Position numbers and translations under genes: made by a program
Part shown: positions 2,436 to 11,850 of the stretch, one piece after another
How the letters are laid out: each line of letters begins with the position of its first letter
How positions within the stretch are numbered: the stretch's first letter is position 1
Notes under the pieces: generated by a model
Database searches by the model: none
What the model saw: the letters and a program-made list of their open reading frames with translations, nothing else
Told to the model about the DNA's origin: nothing
From: a virus
DNA: 20,039 nt
Virus record (IMG/VR): IMGVR_UViG_3300023220_000031
Location: 1-20,039 of that record
Direction: 5' to 3' (one strand)

Positions 2436-3229
2436 TGGAGTGGATTAACGAAATCCTTCTCCTGCTGTTCATACATATCTTTATCACTTTGAAGGCGCTT
2501 TTTGTGATCCGTAATTTGATCGTTGTAAGTTTTGGTTTGTTCCTCGCTTTGGCACTCTGTCATATATTCAGGCCATTCTTTAGTTATTTTATTCAGAGGT
2601 TCTTTATAGTCTATCTTGACCTGTTTAAATTCCTCCAATGAGGTTGTCGACAGTATTGCAGAAAGAAATGGACGAATGTTTTTATCAAGGTTGTGACTGC
2701 CTTTTGGTTTCTTTGGGGCTGTCATTTCGTCGCCCTCATCATCTGCGTGAAGATCGCCTTTGTGCCATAGGTCAAGAGCAGCACCAAAGCGCATCGCGGC
2801 ATTTCTGAGCGCATCGCCTATAACTTCTTTTTCACGGCTTCCTATGTCTTTCCATTCCGAACCTGCCGCGTGACCATAGCCATACCGTGTTACGTCCAAA
2901 ACTGTTAGCTCAATCCACAAACCGCCTGATTGGTCGAAGGCTGGCAAACCAAGATCAGTAAATGCCACTGGCTTCCATGTCCATTTAGGATCACAGTCTA
3001 GCAATTTATCAGTAAGCGCAGCATGTCCGACATAATCTAAATGAATTACATCTTTATGATGATATCCGCCACATACCATACACTTACCGCCCGTTGATTT
3101 GTCTTCTTTATATTTTTTGGTTTGCCATGCTAACGGCTTAGGCAGCTTGCCTATTTGGTTATCGTCAAAGGGTTCGCGCAATAATTCAAGGCCTGTTTTT
3201 TTAGTCTTCTTTTCTTTCTTCTCAGTCAT
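2432..3229 (-). CDS. Rad52-like single-strand annealing protein
   Basis: The 265-aa protein has a Lys-rich start, then LREPFDDNQIGKLPKPL, a zinc-knuckle-like CMVCGGYHH (C50, C53, H57, H58), and the core HLDYVGHAALTDKLLDCDPKWTW...GLWIELTVLDVTRYGYG...EVIGDALRNAAMRFGAALDLWHK. I recognise this core from phage proteins assigned to the Rad52 fold, which anneal complementary single strands. The C-terminal third is charged and helical and probably contacts SSB or partners. It has an AAGGA ribosome site, is coupled to NinB downstream, and shares the region with RusA and a Ref-like nuclease. The family assignment is from memory of the motif, not from a search. Confidence 0.75.
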   Translation of the reverse strand: MTEKKEKKTKKTGLELLREPFDDNQIGKLPKPLAWQTKKYKEDKSTGGKCMVCGGYHHKDVIHLDYVGHAALTDKLLDCDPKWTWKPVAFTDLGLPAFDQSGGLWIELTVLDVTRYGYGHAAGSEWKDIGSREKEVIGDALRNAAMRFGAALDLWHKGDLHADDEGDEMTAPKKPKGSHNLDKNIRPFLSAILSTTSLEEFKQVKIDYKEPLNKITKEWPEYMTECQSEEQTKTYNDQITDHKKRLQSDKDMYEQQEKDFVNPLQ

Positions 3230-3403: not shown

Positions 3404-3762
3404 TGTACTTCCTCCGTATATAAAGCATCGCAATGAATTAGACCTTTAAATTCACACTTAATGTCTGCAATGATATTATTCATGTGGATATCTTCCGTCA
3501 TATGAATCGGGAACTGAGGATTGTCAAAATCATCGCCACTGTCTCGTTTTATTTCCGCTTCAATTCTGGCGTTAACTATTAATTTACCCTCTTCAATCAT
3601 GATCCAGTTAACTTCAAAACCTTCAAATTCGTAGCCGTCATCATCATAAATATCAATGACAAATTCACGCTCTATATCTTCTGCATGAAACTTTTGGTCT
3701 GTGTGTGGCATAATTGTTAATTCACAATCGGCAATTATTTTTACTGTTGTTTGATAATCCAT
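3400..3762 (-). CDS. Acidic phage protein of unknown function, 120 aa
   Basis: The start is the ATG at 3762 (MDYQTTVKIIADCELT), preceded by AGGAGAGAAGAAA. Longer readings run into the promoter. The protein is strongly acidic (blocks such as DIYDDDGYEFEGFEVNW and EIKRDSGDDFDNP), with alternating strand-like segments and no membrane span. It is the first gene of the leftward operon. Acidic early phage proteins sometimes mimic DNA or bind host regulators, but nothing here proves that. I do not recognise the family. Confidence 0.75.
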   Translation of the reverse strand: MDYQTTVKIIADCELTIMPHTDQKFHAEDIEREFVIDIYDDDGYEFEGFEVNWIMIEEGKLIVNARIEAEIKRDSGDDFDNPQFPIHMTEDIHMNNIIADIKCEFKGLIHCDALYTEEVQ

Positions 3763-3780
3763 TTTCTTCTCTCCTAATAT

Positions 3781-3863
3781 TGAACAGCATACACTCATAA
3801 AAATATATGTCAACCCATCTTTTGCGCTTTTTATGAACATATACTCTTGACTTTGTGTTCATA
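3781..3863. promoter_or_regulatory. TGAACA/TGTTCA operator boxes between divergent promoters
   Basis: TATGAACA (3832-3839) and TGTTCATA (3856-3863) form an exact 8-bp inverted repeat centred on the rightward -35. A further TGAACA (3781-3786) abuts the leftward -10. One protein bound to these boxes could control both operons. The ribbon-helix-helix candidate encoded immediately downstream is an obvious suspect, but that is inference. Confidence 0.55.
3786..3813 (-). promoter_or_regulatory. Leftward promoter of the recombination operon
   Basis: On the minus strand a perfect TTGACA (3813-3808) is followed after 16 nt by TATGCT (3791-3786). The expected start lies just downstream, with the AGGAGAGAAGA ribosome site of the first gene close behind. 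The -10 end touches a TGAACA box (3781-3786). Confidence 0.7.
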
Positions 3864-3874
3864 TAGTTTATAAA
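3847..3874 (+). promoter_or_regulatory. Rightward early promoter
   Basis: TTGACT (3847-3852) and TATAAA (3869-3874) are spaced 16 bp apart, each 5 of 6 matches. The expected start near 3881 lies upstream of the gene at 3904. The -35 is flanked by the TATGAACA/TGTTCATA inverted repeat, so repression by steric block is likely. Confidence 0.7.
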
Positions 3875-3903
3875 GGAGTTATTAATTAATTTAAGGATTT
3901 CAA

Positions 3904-4044
3904 ATGTCAAACAAAGAACACGTACATCTAACGCTAAGACCTGGCTATCGATCTAAGCTAAAGAGGCTCGCCGTGAAAGAGGGTGTGAGCGCCGGTAAAA
4001 TTGTGGAAAATCATCTTGATAAGGTGAAAGAAGACAAGGAATGA
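3904..4044 (+). CDS. Ribbon-helix-helix candidate regulator, 46 aa
   Basis: This short gene was read directly: MSNKEHVHLTLRPGYRSKLK and on to ...EDKE. It has AAGGAT 6 nt upstream. The layout is that of Arc/CopG-type proteins: one amphipathic strand (HVHLTLR) near the N-terminus, a first helix (GYRSKLKRLAVKEG), a turn (VSAG) and a second helix (KIVENHLDKVKEDKE). Such proteins dimerise through the strand and insert it into the major groove. It is the first gene of the rightward operon, directly behind the divergent promoters with their repeated TGAACA boxes. This fits an autoregulator, and it couples to RusA by an ATGA overlap. The fold is a pattern-based guess. Confidence 0.65.
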   Translation: MSNKEHVHLTLRPGYRSKLKRLAVKEGVSAGKIVENHLDKVKEDKE

Positions 4045-4406
4045 ATAGCTGGTCAATTACATTACCGTTTCCGCCTTCAACGAACAACTTGCATAGAAAC
4101 GTGAAGGTTAATGTAAGGCCTAAGTCAAAGGTTTACACCAAATGGATTAAAAATTCAGACGCCCTTGCATTGGCACAAAAGCCATTTTGCATCTTCGATA
4201 ACAGGGTAGATATTATAGTTTATATAAATGGCGGTACTGACCATTACGATTGCGATAATTTTCTGAAAGCCCCGATAGATTACATAGTAAATCTCGGTGT
4301 TATCAAAGACGATAAAAAGCCTCATGTAAAAAGCGCCAAGGCGGAATGGAACGATGATATTCCAAAAGGTAGCTGCATGATATTTGTAGAAGAATGTTTA
4401 ACATAG
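4041..4406 (+). CDS. rusA: RusA-family Holliday junction resolvase
   Basis: The 121-aa protein begins SITLPFPPSTNN, the usual RusA opening, and carries HYDCDNFLKAPIDYIVNLGVIKDD. The acidic residues D70, D72 and D91 and lysine K76 fall at the same positions as the essential residues I recall for E. coli RusA, so it should be active. It resolves four-way junctions by paired nicks, with magnesium and as a dimer. Its ATG overlaps the stop of the small regulator (ATGA). Together with NinB, the Rad52-like protein and the Ref-like nuclease it completes a phage recombination set, although here it is in the opposite operon. Confidence 0.93.
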   Translation: MNSWSITLPFPPSTNNLHRNVKVNVRPKSKVYTKWIKNSDALALAQKPFCIFDNRVDIIVYINGGTDHYDCDNFLKAPIDYIVNLGVIKDDKKPHVKSAKAEWNDDIPKGSCMIFVEECLT

Positions 4407-4416
4407 GAGAGAGAAG

Positions 4417-4638
4417 ATGAAAATCAAACAAATAACAAGCCAACACAGAAGAGATTTTAGTGCCATATATGAGTGCGAACATTGCGGCCACGAAACCAAA
4501 GAGCAGGGAGGCGGATATGACGGTGCCTTTTATCATAACAATGTCATTCCTAAAATGCAATGTCCTGAATGTGAAAAAACAGCCAGCGACGATTACCGGC
4601 CTCTTACTACGAAGTATCCTGATGGCATGGTTGTTTAA
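4417..4638 (+). CDS. Small zinc-ribbon phage protein, 73 aa
   Basis: Two CxxC knuckles, YECEHCGHE (C20, C23) and MQCPECEK (C49, C52), are separated by a 25-residue loop containing YDGAFYHNNVIP. This pattern is common in small phage proteins of unknown role and should bind one zinc ion. The ribosome site AGGAGAGAGAAG directly abuts the ATG. The gene lies just behind RusA, within the early rightward operon and before a hairpin at 4677-4706. Nucleic-acid binding or a protein-protein role is plausible; no enzyme motif is visible. Confidence 0.75.
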   Translation: MKIKQITSQHRRDFSAIYECEHCGHETKEQGGGYDGAFYHNNVIPKMQCPECEKTASDDYRPLTTKYPDGMVV

Positions 4639-4676
4639 AGTTCCCCAACGGTCGTTACACATAGCGACCAAAACTC

Positions 4677-4706
4677 AGGCGGGGGTTGTTACAGCTTCCC
4701 CCGCCT
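4677..4706 (+). terminator. GC-rich hairpin, partial terminator or attenuator
   Basis: A perfect 9-bp stem, AGGCGGGGG (4677-4685) with CCCCCGCCT (4698-4706), has a 12-nt loop and is followed by ATATTTG. A weaker 5-bp hairpin (GGTCG 4650-4654, CGACC 4665-4669) precedes it. The trailing run is short of T, and genes continue in the same direction, so it probably reduces rather than ends transcription, or protects the upstream message from 3' decay. Confidence 0.55.
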
Positions 4707-4725
4707 ATATTTGTAAGGAAATATA

Positions 4726-4857
4726 ATGGAAAAGCACGATGAACACTGGCAAGAAGAAGACCCGCTAAACCCCGCTATAGGCGTTTTCGGTTGGTCAGCA
4801 ATAATGGCTATTTGTTGGATGATAGTTTATTTAATTTATAGGGCGGTGGCGTCATGA
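4726..4857 (+). CDS. Small single-span membrane protein, 43 aa
   Basis: This gene was read directly: MEKHDEHWQEEDPLNPAIGV, followed by a hydrophobic span (about residues 18-40, FGWSAIMAICWMIVYLIY) and RAVAS. AAGGA lies 7 nt upstream, and the stop overlaps the next ATG (ATGA). The acidic N-terminus and the arginine after the span suggest the N-terminus is outside and the C-terminus in the cytoplasm. The function is unknown. It lies in the early region away from the endolysin, so a lysis role is less likely than host interaction. Confidence 0.7.
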   Translation: MEKHDEHWQEEDPLNPAIGVFGWSAIMAICWMIVYLIYRAVAS

Positions 4858-5351
4858 TACCCCGTAAAGAAATCATATTTGCAATGGGAAGTGGCGACAT
4901 AAGCGACAGGGCGTTATTTCACATGTTATCAAAATATGTAACGGTTTGCATGACCGAAATTGAAGACATTATCAAACACGGCATTAAAGGCTGGTTACGT
5001 CCTTATGTGGCTTTTGTGCTGAGAATTAAGGATCATATACCAAAGGGTTTTAACCCGCCATTAAAGGTGATTAAGTTCAAGGTCAAAGACTTGCCCCGTC
5101 AGTTGACGTTTGACCATTTAACAAGGCCAGGTGTAAAGGGTCAAGCCCATCATTGGTCAAAGGAGCAACGCAAGAAAAACGACCGTACCTTATGGGCCGA
5201 TAAGGAAATTGGAAGGGCAGTAAGATTGCGAGAATCTGGCCTGACATATAAAGAGATTGGCGACAAAATAAACCGCACCAGAGTATGTGTTACCGGACTG
5301 TTTCGCCGAATAGCTGCCAGAGCGCGCAAAGCAGAACTTAAGGACATATAG
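4854..5351 (+). CDS. DNA-binding protein with GcrA-like C-terminal helix-turn-helix
   Basis: The 165-aa protein has an N-terminal half of unknown fold with hydrophobic stretches (residues 20-60). It ends in a basic C-terminal domain: LWADKEIGRAVRLRESGLTYKEIGDKINRTRVCVTGLFRRI, starting at W114. The W..E......L.E.GL.Y.EI...I..TR..V.G..RR pattern resembles the DNA-binding part of GcrA, the alphaproteobacterial cell-cycle regulator that works on methylated promoters, and also generic HTH_38-type domains. A phage copy could redirect host transcription or regulate phage genes. It couples to the upstream membrane protein by ATGA. The HTH is well supported; the GcrA relation is weak. Confidence 0.65.
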   Translation: MIPRKEIIFAMGSGDISDRALFHMLSKYVTVCMTEIEDIIKHGIKGWLRPYVAFVLRIKDHIPKGFNPPLKVIKFKVKDLPRQLTFDHLTRPGVKGQAHHWSKEQRKKNDRTLWADKEIGRAVRLRESGLTYKEIGDKINRTRVCVTGLFRRIAARARKAELKDI

Positions 5352-5360
5352 GAGAGAAGA

Positions 5361-5636
5361 ATGGGCGATAAAATGAAACAACATTACGCAAATGAGGATG
5401 GATGGAGCGAACCAGATACCCCTGTTATGCGCGGTTATAAGCTTTGTTGTTGTGATTGTGGTCTTGTTCATAATGTTGATTTCAATGTTCTTCAGGTAAC
5501 TGGATACAATAAAGACGGAACATGGAACGCCGAATACTTACCTATAGAGAATTACCGTGTCGAATTGCGTATGCAGAGAAACAACAGAAGCACCGGACAA
5601 ATTAAACGACATATGATTAACAGAAAGGATAGATAG
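5361..5636 (+). CDS. Conserved phage protein with a cysteine-rich CCDCG motif, 91 aa
   Basis: Residues 22-36 read MRGYKLCCCDCGLVH, and the C-terminus reads YRVELRMQRNNRSTGQIKRHM. I associate this pairing (a short cysteine cluster followed by an arginine-rich RNNR.TGQI segment) with a recurring phage family of unknown function. The cysteines may bind a metal but a second CxxC is missing, so completion by histidine (H36) or dimerisation would be needed. The ribosome site AGGAGAGAAGA directly precedes the ATG. The next gene follows without a gap. Confidence 0.7.
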   Translation: MGDKMKQHYANEDGWSEPDTPVMRGYKLCCCDCGLVHNVDFNVLQVTGYNKDGTWNAEYLPIENYRVELRMQRNNRSTGQIKRHMINRKDR

Positions 5637-5816
5637 ATGAGTCAAGAACATTACGAAAGGATGGCGGAAAAGATATTAAAATCTTATGGCGCCGATACGA
5701 AAATAGAGAACATTCAAAATTTACGTGAATATTTAGTCACTGAATATAACAACGGCTTTCAGATGGGTTTTGATGCTTGCGGTGATCAAATTAAAGGATT
5801 GCTTGGAATGGGTTGA
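5637..5816 (+). CDS. Small helical phage protein, 59 aa
   Basis: This gene was read directly: MSQEHYERMAEKILKSYGAD, then a helical stretch ending in DQIKGLLGMG. AAAGGA is about 8 nt upstream, and the start directly follows the previous stop. It has no motif, signal or membrane span. Its last codons overlap the -35 of the promoter at 5813-5840, so the coding end and the start of the RNA unit share bases. The function is unknown. Confidence 0.65.
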   Translation: MSQEHYERMAEKILKSYGADTKIENIQNLREYLVTEYNNGFQMGFDACGDQIKGLLGMG

Positions 5817-5840
5817 TTAATAATTGAAACCGTCTATAAT
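5813..5840 (+). promoter_or_regulatory. Promoter of the small RNA
   Basis: TTGATT (5813-5818) and a perfect TATAAT (5835-5840) are spaced 16 bp apart. The expected start is 5847-5848, immediately at the G-run that begins the structured RNA. The -35 overlaps the stop codon of the preceding gene. Confidence 0.7.
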
Positions 5841-5846
5841 AGAGGT

Positions 5847-5907
5847 GTGGGGGCTAGATCAGGCCGATCGAACCCCGTAGTCTCACGGACTGCCCCCTAA
5901 CATTTTT
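5847..5907 (+). ncRNA. Candidate small structured RNA, about 60 nt
   Basis: The RNA can close as GGGGGC (5849-5854) with GCCCCC (5892-5897). Inside are a hairpin GATC-AGGCC-GATC (5857-5869) and a second hairpin, either AGTC (5879-5882) with GACT (5888-5891) or CCGT (5875-5878) with ACGG (5885-5888). This makes a three-way junction. TTTTT (5903-5907) follows shortly after, as in an intrinsic terminator. A competing fold pairs GGGG (5849-5852) with CCCC (5873-5876), so the element may switch. A consensus -10 lies just upstream. It could be a trans-acting phage RNA, or a 5' attenuator for the replication genes that begin at 5936. It matches no family I know, and it is too short for a tRNA. Confidence 0.6.
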
Positions 5908-5935
5908 ACAGAGACAGCCAAGGAGACTAAGGCAA

Positions 5936-6085
5936 ATGAAATTACCACCGCACATAGACCGTCTTTTCCAAGACTACCTCAATCTCAAAGCTAAATACAA
6001 TATGCGCATGGCAACATACGATGATATGTATGCCAAGAAACAATTGTATCTGATTGCTTACAATGATTATTTGGGGCGGTTTTAA
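5936..6085 (+). CDS. Small tyrosine-rich phage protein, 49 aa
   Basis: This gene was read directly: MKLPPHIDRLFQDYLNLKAK, ending ...AYNDYLGRF. It has AAGGAGAC upstream (spacing somewhat long, about 10 nt) and joins the replication initiator by a TAATG overlap. The protein is helical and rich in tyrosine, with no membrane span. Its position directly after the RNA element and directly before the initiator gene suggests it belongs to the replication unit, perhaps as a leader or accessory subunit. The function is unknown. Confidence 0.65.
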   Translation: MKLPPHIDRLFQDYLNLKAKYNMRMATYDDMYAKKQLYLIAYNDYLGRF

Positions 6086-6765
6086 TGGCTGAGTTTTATA
6101 TGCGTGATATTAGAGCGTGGCGTGATAGTACAATCAAACTGACATTTGAAGAGCAGGGTTATTTTTCAGCATTACTTGACCTTATTTATATATACCATGA
6201 TTGCTTAATAGACGACGACGATTTAATTTGCCGGGCAATGCCGGTTAATAAAAAGGTTCATTTAAGGCTTAAAAAAAGGCTCATCGAAAATGGATTTATA
6301 AAGATACAAAGCGGGTTCTACTTCAACTCAAGATCAACTCAAGAGCTACTCAAGATCAACTCAAAGTCAGTTCAAAACAAACTCAAAGCCGATAAGAGAT
6401 GGGCTAAGTCACGGAAAACAAAAGAAATGGTTGATGCTGTAGCACTGCAACGGCAATGCGAAGGTGAAAGTGAAGGTGAAAGTGAAGATAATAACCCTGA
6501 CGGGTTATTACGCGCGTACAAGTTTGAAGGCAATGTTATTCGATTAAATTTCAAAGATTACGACAAGTGGAAACAGAGTTATCATGCAATACCAGACTTT
6601 GATGCACAGCTTCAATCGGCAGATGATTGGATTAGCGGAGAAAGCGATAAAAATCAAAAAAGATGGTTTCATGTGATTAGTTCAATGCTTGGGAAAAAAC
6701 ACCAACAATATTTAACTGACGCCAAAAAAGAAATGAACGGCAGCAAAAAGGGGTGGATGCTGTGA
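6085..6765 (+). CDS. DUF1376-type phage replication initiator, 226 aa
   Basis: The N-terminus (MAEFYMRDIRAWRDSTIKLTFEEQGYFSALLDLIY) is the DUF1376-like winged-helix start found in phage initiators, reaching to about residue 85. A variable, repeat-containing linker follows (residues 80-140), with two 11-residue repeats (NSRSTQELLKI, NSKSVQNKLKA) and an EGES repeat. A C-terminal domain, DDWISGESDKNQKRWFHVISSMLGKK, resembles the tails of O/DnaT-like proteins that recruit the helicase. The helicase gene follows with a 4-bp overlap. The repeats arise from 11-bp DNA iterons within the gene, as in lambda O, where the initiator binds iterons inside its own gene. No catalytic motif is expected. The initiator role is inferred from domain and context. 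Confidence 0.75.
   Translation: MAEFYMRDIRAWRDSTIKLTFEEQGYFSALLDLIYIYHDCLIDDDDLICRAMPVNKKVHLRLKKRLIENGFIKIQSGFYFNSRSTQELLKINSKSVQNKLKADKRWAKSRKTKEMVDAVALQRQCEGESEGESEDNNPDGLLRAYKFEGNVIRLNFKDYDKWKQSYHAIPDFDAQLQSADDWISGESDKNQKRWFHVISSMLGKKHQQYLTDAKKEMNGSKKGWML
6324..6389 (+). repeat. Six tandem 11-bp iterons, candidate replication origin
   Basis: Units begin at 6324, 6335, 6346, 6357, 6368 and 6379, with consensus CAACTCAAGAT: CAACTCAAGAT, CAACTCAAGAG, CTACTCAAGAT, CAACTCAAAGT, CAGTTCAAAAC, AAACTCAAAGC. The CTCAA core is kept in five units (TTCAA in one). Eleven bases is about one helical turn and not a multiple of three, so the codon frame shifts from unit to unit. The repeat is therefore not explained by a simple amino-acid repeat. 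It lies in the linker of the initiator gene, as the lambda origin lies in O. Confidence 0.7.
6489..6510. repeat. 9-bp perfect inverted repeat downstream of the iterons
   Basis: TAATAACCC (6489-6497) and GGGTTATTA (6502-6510) pair perfectly around TGAC. It lies within the initiator coding sequence about 100 bp after the iterons, and codes for ordinary linker residues. It could be a melting or primer-start structure of the origin. A 12-bp tandem GGTGAAAGTGAA (6463-6486) lies just before it. Confidence 0.6.
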
Positions 6766-8186
6766 AAAAAGCAGAATTACAAAAACTGAATATTGAAAGC
6801 AATGTTGTTGAATGGTTTGAAAGCCGTGGTATTGAAATGGATATTCTGACCTATGCGGGGATATATACCGGAACGCCGTATATTGGGACAGGTGTTTACA
6901 TAACATTTCCGCGATATAGCCTTGACGGTGATGTTGTAAATAATCGAATGGGGACTTTGATCGATGGTGAGCTGATAGATATTTGTTCAAGCGATACGGG
7001 GCAAGATTGTTTTTATAACGCTCAGGGTCTTGATTTGGCAGTGTCGGAGGAAAAACCGCTTGTCATATGTCAACGTGAAATGGATTCTCTTTCATTGATG
7101 CAATCAGCCCATGCATGGACAATAGCTTATGTTGAGGGCGATGATTTAATATGGAACAACAAAGATAAATTCAGGAAAATAAAAAAAGTTGTGCTGGCTG
7201 GCTTTAATAATGAGCGCGGGAAAGAATTTAACGAAATAATCAGCAAGCAACTGGGAATAGAGAACTGCGAGTTCATTGTTTATCCAGATGATTGCATGAC
7301 CGTAAACGATGTTTTGGTTAAGCATGGGAAGAATAGAGTTCTGCAATTAATCGAAACCGCAAGAGATTATCCTGTTGTTGGTCTGTATCGGCCTGATGAG
7401 TTCCCGCCGATACCAGAAGAACTGAAAAAGGTTCATACAACAAATTTAGGCAATGAACATAACCACCGAATAAAAATAATGCTTGGCAAGTTTATGGTTG
7501 TTACTGGAATACCTGGACATGGTAAATCGGAGTGGGCGGATGGTTTGGTTATGGACTTAGCAAAAAAACATAATTGGAAAGTTTGCGTTTGTTCAACAGA
7601 AATCGACAACGAGGAATATCAAGAAAATTCTATTCATAGATATTTGAGACGACCACTTGATGATGTCGGCGAGAAAGAACCGGCGAAGGCTTTGCGATTT
7701 TATCAAGACCATTACACGTTTATAACCAACAATACGATGGATGATGAAATTGAACTGACTTTAGAAAAATTAATAGAGCTTGCCAAGATAGCTATCGTTC
7801 GAGATGGGTGCAAAATATTATTGCTTGATCCGTGGAACGAGATAGAGCATTGCCGGGGCAGAAACGAAACCGAAACCGAATATACGGGCCGCGCTATTCG
7901 AATGCTTAAGAAGCTTGCCAAGCAATTCAGAATTTTGGTTATAGTGGTGGCCCATCCAAGTAAACCACCACACGGAAAGCAGGAATGCCCGAACCTGTAT
8001 AGCATTAACGGCTCGGCGAATTGGGCGAATAAAGCGGATTATGGAATTATAATTTGGCGCGAAAACAAAGACAGCGACCTTAGTGAAATAAGGGTTGCCA
8101 AGATTAAACGACATGGGCCTATGGGATACGAGGGCTCAATATCAGTTAAGTTGAATGATGCGGCAAAGCGATTTGAAGAAATTTAA
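6762..8186 (+). CDS. Twinkle/DnaB-type replicative helicase with degenerate TOPRIM domain
   Basis: I place the start at the GTG at 6762 (474 aa), which overlaps the previous stop as GTGA and has AAGGGGTGG upstream. A GTG at 6753 is possible. The N-terminal part lacks a primase zinc finger. Residues about 100-195 follow the TOPRIM plan, but the EGE motif reads ICQREMD (101-107) and the DND motif reads AGFNNERG (146-153), so catalytic acids are lost. The helicase core has Walker A GIPGHGKS (249-256), Walker B ILLLDPW (about 352-358), VVAHPSK, and the NKADYGIIIW segment of DnaB/Twinkle proteins. It should unwind DNA at the fork as a ring but not make primers. Gene order and the 4-bp overlap tie it to the initiator. 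Confidence 0.85.
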   Translation: MKKAELQKLNIESNVVEWFESRGIEMDILTYAGIYTGTPYIGTGVYITFPRYSLDGDVVNNRMGTLIDGELIDICSSDTGQDCFYNAQGLDLAVSEEKPLVICQREMDSLSLMQSAHAWTIAYVEGDDLIWNNKDKFRKIKKVVLAGFNNERGKEFNEIISKQLGIENCEFIVYPDDCMTVNDVLVKHGKNRVLQLIETARDYPVVGLYRPDEFPPIPEELKKVHTTNLGNEHNHRIKIMLGKFMVVTGIPGHGKSEWADGLVMDLAKKHNWKVCVCSTEIDNEEYQENSIHRYLRRPLDDVGEKEPAKALRFYQDHYTFITNNTMDDEIELTLEKLIELAKIAIVRDGCKILLLDPWNEIEHCRGRNETETEYTGRAIRMLKKLAKQFRILVIVVAHPSKPPHGKQECPNLYSINGSANWANKADYGIIIWRENKDSDLSEIRVAKIKRHGPMGYEGSISVKLNDAAKRFEEI

Positions 8187-8214
8187 CGTCTCACAAGTTG
8201 ATAAATAACCCTTA

Positions 8215-8243
8215 TTTACAATAAAACCGTTCTGGTTTATACT
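8215..8243 (+). promoter_or_regulatory. Promoter of the lysis and late block
   Basis: TTTACA (8215-8220) and TATACT (8238-8243) are spaced 17 bp apart, each 5 of 6 matches. The expected start, 7 nt after the -10, is at about 8250, which is the first base of the endolysin ATG. It occupies most of the only gap between the helicase and endolysin genes. Confidence 0.6.
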
Positions 8244-8249
8244 TGGCTT

Positions 8250-8606
8250 ATGGCTAGGTTGACTAAAAACTTTAAACGCGAGGAATTTTCCTGCAAGTGT
8301 GGTTGTGGATATAACACGGCCGACTTTGACTTGGTTAACATATGCCAGGAAATAGCAGATCATTTCGAAGACGTTGTTAATATAACTTCTGGTTGCCGCT
8401 GTCATGGCCATAACAAGGCCGTGGGCGGTAGCGCAAACTCACAACACTTATTGGGTCGGGCCGCTGATTTAAAACTCAAGCATACCGATCCAGAAGAAGT
8501 ACAAGAGTATCTCACAAGCCAATATCCAGATAGTCTCGGAATTGGCAAATACAACACATTCACACACATAGACACCCGTGATGATATCGCGCGGTGGGAA
8601 GGATAG
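8250..8606 (+). CDS. Peptidase M15 endolysin (peptidoglycan peptidase)
   Basis: The 118-aa protein is a complete M15_3-type D-alanyl peptidase. It opens LTKNFKREEFSCKCGCG, and the zinc ligands are H66 and D73 (SQHLLGRAAD) and H106 (TFTHID), with GSANSQH as in Hedgehog/VanY-like folds. It cuts peptide crosslinks in the cell wall. There is no signal peptide or membrane anchor, so it needs a holin or similar to reach the wall. No Shine-Dalgarno site precedes the ATG, although the start is supported by the usual N-terminus of the family. The promoter 7 nt upstream suggests leaderless translation. It is followed by a 33-aa membrane protein that may be the holin. Confidence 0.93.
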   Translation: MARLTKNFKREEFSCKCGCGYNTADFDLVNICQEIADHFEDVVNITSGCRCHGHNKAVGGSANSQHLLGRAADLKLKHTDPEEVQEYLTSQYPDSLGIGKYNTFTHIDTRDDIARWEG

Positions 8607-10379: not shown

Positions 10380-10570
10380 ATAGATTATTAGGAAACACAT
10401 CGTTTTTCACGGGAAACACAGGATTAACAAAGATAATACAAAAATCATTTCTTGAGGATGTTGAGGTGGCACCCCCTGTTGGCGGGCGTATTATGTCAAG
10501 TCTGGCAGGTTATGGTGGATTGGCTGGATTGGGCGGCATCGCAGGTAAAGGCGGAGGATTAGCCGGATGA
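10376..10570 (+). CDS. Glycine-rich small phage protein, 64 aa
   Basis: The protein begins MNRLLGNTSFFTGNTGLTKI and ends in a glycine/alanine/leucine-rich tail (YGGLAGLGGIAGKGGGLAG). It overlaps the genes on both sides by 4 bp (ATGA), so it is translated as part of the structural unit. A low-complexity flexible tail in a virion operon suggests an assembly or minor virion component. It is not long enough to be a fibre. I recognise no family. Confidence 0.65.
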   Translation: MNRLLGNTSFFTGNTGLTKIIQKSFLEDVEVAPPVGGRIMSSLAGYGGLAGLGGIAGKGGGLAG

Positions 10571-11850
10571 CAGATTATTCATTAAGTGACACGATATATC
10601 AAATGTTTACAACAAGGGCATTTGCTACAGGTATTCCCACAGTTTTAGCAGGAACTCCGATTGTTTCAGCTTATGAAAACGATAGTGTAACGCAGATCAC
10701 GGCGGGAATAACGCTTGGCGTGTCTCATGATGGCGTGGTTGGTATGAATTTACTTACTATCGTAGCGACCGGCGCGAATGGTTTCGAAGCGGGAAAAGAT
10801 TATAATTTAGTTATCACGACTGGAACCGTGGGCAGTGTGTCGGTGGTTGGTGAGGTTGTTGGGACATTTAGTATTGAACGCAGCGCTGCTGTATCAGACA
10901 TCGCGGCATTGAATGACGTAGCCGCAACTGACATTGTTAGTGCTGGTGCTATAACCACCTTGGCCGGCGCGATTGTTAACGTTGATCTTGTTGATACCAC
11001 GACAACGAATACAGATATGCGCGGTACAGATAGCGCGTTCTTGGCGGCTTCCGCGCCAACAAACTTTAGTTCTATGGTTATTAGTGGCGCTGGCGCGGTT
11101 GATGCATTAACGCAGGGTTATTTAAATACGCTTCTCACCGAAGCGACGGCGGGGCGTATAGCTGGAAACTTTGACATATTCTTTGAAAACGCCGACGCGG
11201 TTACAACGCAGGTTGTTGACGATGTTGGCGGCGGCGCAGGCGGAACTGATTGGAGCGCGGCAGAACGCAATGAAATACGCGGAAGGCTTGGCATAACAGG
11301 GACCACGGCAGCGGGCGGTAACCCGCCTACGCTGTCGCTTCAAAGTTCAATCGACGCGTTAAATGATTTTAACCCCGCAAGTGATGCAGTCGCTAATGTT
11401 ACTCTGGTGGCGACCACCACCACCAATACAGACATGAGAGGAACGGATAGTGCTTTATTGGCAGCGAGCGCCCCAACTAATTTTGGCGATCTTGCGATTA
11501 CAGTAACTACTGGACAGGTCACTGTTGGAACAAATAACGACAAATCTGGATATGCAATATCAGGAACTATCACGACACTAGATGGTTTAAACAACTTTAA
11601 TCCGTCTACAGATGCTATAGCAAACGTAACTTTAGTCGCGACAACTACCTCAAACACGGATATGCGCGGCACTGACAGCGCAGCTACTGCGGCAGCGCTC
11701 GCAACAGTTGACGCAAATGTTGATGCAATTAAATTAACAACAGATAAGTTCGTGTTTACAATAGCGGGCGTGGTTGATTGTAATATTCAAAGAGTAAATG
11801 ATGTCACGGTGAACGGAACTGGCGCCGCTGGTAATGAATGGGGGCCATAA
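10567..11850 (+). CDS. Repeat-containing virion protein, 427 aa
   Basis: The N-terminal about 105 residues look like an Ig/beta-sandwich attachment domain (GMNLLTIVATGANGFEAGKDYNLVI). After that a segment recurs three times: TNTDMRGTDSA at residues 147-157 and 286-296, and SNTDMRGTDSA at 362-372. Copies 2 and 3 are preceded by LN.FNP..DA.ANVTLVATT, and copies 1 and 2 are followed by LAASAPTNF. At DNA level the copies are clearly diverged, so the repeat is old and kept at protein level. The C-terminus VNDVTVNGTGAAGNEWGP is a pattern I recall from phage and bacterial virion-type proteins. The repeats may form a shaft or collar fibre. There are no enzymatic motifs. Confidence 0.7.
   Translation: MTDYSLSDTIYQMFTTRAFATGIPTVLAGTPIVSAYENDSVTQITAGITLGVSHDGVVGMNLLTIVATGANGFEAGKDYNLVITTGTVGSVSVVGEVVGTFSIERSAAVSDIAALNDVAATDIVSAGAITTLAGAIVNVDLVDTTTTNTDMRGTDSAFLAASAPTNFSSMVISGAGAVDALTQGYLNTLLTEATAGRIAGNFDIFFENADAVTTQVVDDVGGGAGGTDWSAAERNEIRGRLGITGTTAAGGNPPTLSLQSSIDALNDFNPASDAVANVTLVATTTTNTDMRGTDSALLAASAPTNFGDLAITVTTGQVTVGTNNDKSGYAISGTITTLDGLNNFNPSTDAIANVTLVATTTSNTDMRGTDSAATAAALATVDANVDAIKLTTDKFVFTIAGVVDCNIQRVNDVTVNGTGAAGNEWGP

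Follow-up and report, generated by a model that had tools for sequence, protein, structure and literature searches.

The stretch of DNA analysed here (the window) comprises the 20,039 bases of virus record IMGVR_UViG_3300023220_000031, in which a structured leader follows a 59-aa ORF and precedes a replication operon encoding a 49-aa ORF, a DUF1376 or primosomal protein and a DnaB-like helicase or primase-helicase (Table 1). The proteins tested from the 20-kb fragment included no identifiable integrase. Elsewhere in the window, a candidate phage repressor is encoded on the minus strand at 1414-1749 in a leftward gene block; this small protein carries a LexA DNA-binding domain (PF01726, E 4e-13). 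The predicted protein of 10567-11850 has several near-copies of a repeat that includes TTxTNTDMRGTDSA and seems to be modular and to belong to the virion or to be associated with the tail.

Architecture of the leader

The initial annotation of the leader, as a possible phage small RNA or switching attenuator, listed a promoter, a three-way junction at the expected transcription start, a competing fold and a T-run shortly before the replication genes, and this anatomy was confirmed. The TTGATT and TATAAT elements are separated by a 16-nt spacer, agree with the consensus at 10 of 12 positions and rank among the three best-scoring promoter-like sites in 3700-8300, a region with 11 such sites and hence no excess over shuffled sequences (13.2). 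The closing stem P1 (GGGGGC with GCCCCC) encloses two hairpins, P2 and P3, and the alternative pairing of GGGG with CCCC yields a fold of near-equal energy (-19.9 kcal/mol, compared with -19.8 for the three-way junction). This two-state folding may bear on whether the P3 loop is exposed. The first gene of the operon starts 28 nt after the T-run.

The structured leader RNA, its apparent own promoter and its two folds thus stand from the earlier proposal, whereas its reading as a ligand switch (considered below) and the T-run as a terminator do not: no intrinsic terminator was called at 5903-5907, and the T-run is unlikely to work as a simple terminator. Since the feature includes the target sites and the start codon, its limits are better set at about 5813-5938.

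Table 1. Positions of the leader elements and operon genes in the window, and of the leader RNAs in two related phages
Feature	Position	Strand	Remarks
-35 element TTGATT	5813..5818	+	overlaps stop codon of the upstream 59-aa ORF
-10 element TATAAT	5835..5840	+	places the predicted transcription start on, or next to, the first base of P1
int-alpA-like three-way-junction RNA	5847..5913	+	full RF02996 model, 28.0 bits, E=2e-4
P1 5' strand GGGGGC	5849..5854	+	pairs with 5892-5897; CCCC 5873-5876 competes
CUAG conserved in the int-alpA family	5854..5857	+	alignment and descriptor
Hairpin P2, GAUC-AGGCC-GAUC	5857..5869	+	followed by conserved CGAA 5869-5872
Hairpin P3, CCG-UAGUCUCA-CGG	5875..5888	+	stem of only 3 bp; int-alpA alignment and fold
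Anti-Shine-Dalgarno loop UAGUCUC	5878..5884	+	exact complement of GAGACUA 5923-5929
P1 3' strand GCCCCC	5892..5897	+	int-alpA alignment and fold
U-run	5903..5907	+	no intrinsic terminator called
Target site 1, GAGAC	5911..5915	+	5-nt match to P3 loop
Target site 2, GAGACUA	5923..5929	+	7-nt match to P3 loop; overlaps Shine-Dalgarno AAGGAG 5920-5925
49-aa ORF, first gene of replication operon	5936..6082	+	start codon 22 nt past RF02996 model end, typical of the family
DUF1376 / primosomal protein	6085..6765	+	
DnaB-like helicase / primase-helicase	6753..8186	+	
Leader RNA of L002	3910-3969		directly 5' of replication genes
Leader RNA of L004	3029-3088		directly 5' of replication genes

The key element, missed in the initial annotation, is the complementarity of the P3 loop to the downstream Shine-Dalgarno (SD) sequence. 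The match with site 2 extends to nine of ten positions (5875-5884 with 5923-5932), and site 1, about 15 nt 3' of P1, supplies a second one. In leader shuffles, both matches occurred jointly with p about 7e-4, while the 5-nt match of site 1 by itself gave p 0.08; none of the leaders of 80 other int-alpA RNAs (the family treated below) matched UAGUCUC at both sites. GAGACTA is present at only two places on the plus strand of the 20 kb, and at a start site only here. No further start-site target was found in the window, GGAGAC occurring on the plus strand only at the leader's own SD. The duplex of loop and SD was calculated at -10.1 kcal/mol, compared with -8.5 for the SD with the 16S anti-SD. 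Purine-rich SD sequences favour partial matches to pyrimidine loops, which for the family is covered by the swapped control described below. Pairing of loop and site in cis with P1 intact corresponds to a pseudoknot, a structure beyond the folding programs used.

Resemblance to the int-alpA family and loop-target covariation

The statement in the initial annotation that the structure matches no known family has to be revised, as the leader aligns over the full model of the widespread int-alpA family (RF02996) and shares the plan of the C4/CI RNAs. The RF02996 score of 28.0 bits is below the gathering score of 35.8, which places the RNA outside the curated membership rule, and the E value was computed for the search of a short region (111 bases x 4227 families). 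The alignment includes the closing stem P1, the hairpins P2 and P3, of which P3 is short, and all the junction letters of the family, namely CUAG after P1, CGAA after P2 and UG before the P1 3' strand. A motif descriptor consisting of closing stem, CUA, P2, GAA, UG and closing stem matched once in the window, at the leader RNA, with 0.09 matches expected per shuffled window. R1, a covariance model made from 46 int-alpA RNAs without the window and apparently without down-weighting (effective number 46), gave the leader RNA 9.9 bits and E 0.36, the second-best score in the window; the search of the whole window against Rfam at gathering thresholds returned no match. Judged from these alignments, remote homology of the leader RNA to int-alpA is likely, though not proved.

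A close relative of the exact window RNA was not found in the searches. The int-alpA model had no match in 11 records, mostly of related viruses, although the window's own RNA was likewise missed there, which weakens this negative, and R1 had no convincing match in 45 related loci. In annotated phages, neither DNA similarity searches with the leader and with the operon nor tblastn with the DUF1376 protein produced a match, and pattern scans of viral contigs returned the two known relatives of Table 1 or nothing. No description of int-alpA function was found in the literature, the mention found being a presence/absence entry only and the original description of the family lying outside the search.

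Of 398 Pseudomonadota genomes, 51 yielded a total of 89 int-alpA RNAs, and loop-target complementarity across the family was measured in the 80 left after removal of near-duplicates. Site 1 was taken to be the 20 nt immediately 3' of P1 and site 2 the stretch 14-50 nt after P1, and each was scored by the longest exact complement to the P3 loop. Mean scores with the own loop exceeded those with swapped loops at site 1 (5.15 vs 3.78, sd 0.11) and at site 2 (4.86 vs 4.00, sd 0.10), and 0 of 20,000 permutations reached the observed mean at either site. The preference was retained with one entry per distinct loop (n=66; 5.09 vs 3.71 at site 1 and 4.74 vs 3.95 at site 2) and among elements less than 70% similar (z 8.8 and 6.2, respectively). 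The P2 hairpin, used as a negative control, showed no own-site preference, and C4 RNAs as a positive control gave z 14. The loop letters vary widely (CCUUUCA, CCUCA, UCCUGG, CCGCA, ACUCCA), with the targets varying in step. The aligner shifts the loop, which left the hand-set P3 pairing on alignment A4 only 49% paired; the loop-target statistics were therefore obtained by permutation. The loop-target rule is provisionally regarded as new for int-alpA.

Clusters of int-alpA RNAs, each RNA 5' of a related or different ORF, occur in some genomes, among them L205 (411-476 and 1103-1168) and L221, as if the RNA-plus-gene unit had been duplicated or shuffled; the survey counted up to six of the RNAs per genome. 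In L188, L196, L198 and L207, the loop is UUCCUGG or near to it and stands 5' of a recurring protein family with the motif FWPDxISAC / AxxWLExN; in this subgroup the loop is nearly constant, in contrast to the remaining family.

Leader RNAs of related phages

Relatives of the helicase were found at 55-61% identity and one relative of the DUF1376 protein at 60%. In the leaders of two related phages, L002 and L004, a TTGA(A/T)T box stands 16 nt from the -10 box, the spacing of the window promoter; a closing stem GUGGCG/CGCCAC follows 6-7 nt after the -10 box, and the loop CUUUCC is complementary to two GGAAAG sites 5' of the start codon (two-site shuffle p 0.005 and 0.002, respectively). Neither leader matched int-alpA, and the CUAG/CGAA core is absent. 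They have in common with the window RNA the type of promoter, a closing stem, the position and the pairing of one loop with two sites in the SD region, and differ from it in their letters. Position and logic are conserved among the three phages, while the letters, and possibly the RNA lineage too, change.

A weak CRISPR-repeat match in L004 (E 0.16) was judged to be chance. The element is absent 5' of the primosomal gene of L072, a close relative. In L003, a further related phage, the region 3020-3110 contains TTGATT/TAAAAT and then a hairpin ACGCC...GGCGT; the roughly 300 nt from there to the replication genes show no obvious gene. No loop-SD match was seen in this leader, which may contain a leader RNA of a different type or some other non-coding RNA.

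Proposed function and comparison with C4/CI and int-alpA RNAs

The C4 RNA of phages P1 and P7 is described as an antisense RNA of three stems that masks ribosome binding sites with its b' loop (PMC5320573). The CI RNA of the satellite P4, likewise an antisense RNA, is described as shutting off the replication genes by pairing with seqA and seqC, two complementary sites of the transcript that contains it (PMC4825925). P4 CI RNA scores as a C4 member (RF01695, 74.9 bits), and the SD of the following ORF, UUCACAGGA, is complementary to its P3 loop, UCCUGUGAA. The window leader shows the corresponding relation, in that its loop UAGUCUC is complementary to GAGACUA, which lies in the same leader at the ribosome binding site for the gene that follows.

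An antisense leader RNA restraining the replication operon is considered the best reading, because plan and place are as in P4 CI while the letters differ; the leader RNA is probably a self-encoded, int-alpA-like antisense RNA with which the phage represses its own replication operon. Transcription would start at stem P1, and the RNA would fold as a three-way junction with the P3 loop exposed, ready to pair with site 1 and with site 2 over the SD of the first replication gene. Such pairing would block ribosome binding, and the untranslated transcript could then terminate early, as in C4/CI. The RNA could act on its own transcript or in trans, as a separate RNA some 50-60 nt long, on the leader of an incoming genome, with a putative role in immunity or copy control.

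Among the alternatives, a leader acting only in cis, as a translational switch resembling an RNA thermometer, fares best. The anti-SD strand would pair alternately within P3 and with the SD of the same mRNA, and neither a discrete small RNA nor immunity would be involved. This agrees with the near-isoenergetic folds, with the unconvincing T-run and with the predicted fold of the full leader, where site 2 is paired with the anti-SD strand at probabilities of 0.82-0.98 over most of GGAGACU. Site 1 would be superfluous in such a switch, and two targets together with the int-alpA/C4 three-way junction typify antisense RNAs of this plan, so that a cis-only switch is regarded as unlikely.

It is quite improbable that an ordinary GC-rich leader fortuitously acquired its int-alpA and SD matches. 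The folding energy is unexceptional (z -1.3 against shuffles), the Rfam score is sub-gathering and the family-derived model returns 9.9 bits, all as expected of chance. The leader is nevertheless placed above chance because of the rarity of the descriptor, the full-length int-alpA alignment and the loop match to two downstream sites, independent lines that converge; the family-typical distance to the start codon and the like anatomy in two related phages also speak against coincidence.

The ligand-binding riboswitch or transcription attenuator of the initial annotation drew on the compact junction, the competing fold, the U-run and the 5' leader position. No riboswitch family of Rfam 15 was matched at gathering thresholds, nor at E up to 5 on 5800-5960, no terminator was called, and in relatives the loop changes along with its target and no aptamer core is kept, all of which makes such a device very improbable here. 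Least probable of all is a host-directed small RNA acting on bacterial mRNAs with an incidental self-match, for although C4-class RNAs of phage origin are proposed regulators of host transcripts in Acinetobacter (PMC5320573), the self-match here covers 7 nt on the SD and shows covariation both within the family and among related phages.

Beyond the single locus, we lean slightly towards viewing the int-alpA RNAs, with the window RNA as a remote phage version, as a second C4/CI-like class, in which one fast-changing loop is locked to two sites in its own leader and would give each phage or island a private RNA lock on replication or on the next gene; the leaders of L002 and L004 would be a third lineage of the device. 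The antisense leader RNA proposed here links int-alpA to a testable mechanism, a loop covarying with two downstream sites of which the second lies at the start of the next gene. If this is true, int-alpA would stand next to the immunity RNAs C4 of P1 and CI of P4, RNA-based brakes on the replication operons of phages would seem more frequent and more diverse than those of the known family, and loop sequences would predict mutual silencing among phages.

With int-alpA, the window RNA shares the P1/P2/P3 three-way junction with CUAG, CGAA and UG, the P3 loop complementary to two downstream sites and the distance from model end to next start codon (about 20-25 nt; mostly 12-28 nt in the family). 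It departs from the family in its sub-gathering score and 3-bp P3 stem, in the sigma70-like promoter match at P1, where a -10-like box is present in 3 of 89 int-alpA RNAs, and in its position 5' of a replication operon. Its flanks are this operon and the 59-aa ORF, in place of the integrase/alpA genes next to which the family is located in prophages.

With C4/CI, it shares the encoding of a phage RNA in a leader, the P1/P2/P3 plan and a P3 loop directed against the SD of the next gene; P4 CI RNA likewise sits in the leader of its replication operon, which it controls. The window RNA is shorter and of different sequence, and the C4 covariance model (RF01695) had no match in the leader region at E up to 5. 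It uses one loop for two sites, whereas C4 has separate a' and b' loops, and its predicted start site lies at P1, in contrast to C4/CI RNAs, which are released by RNase P from a longer transcript.
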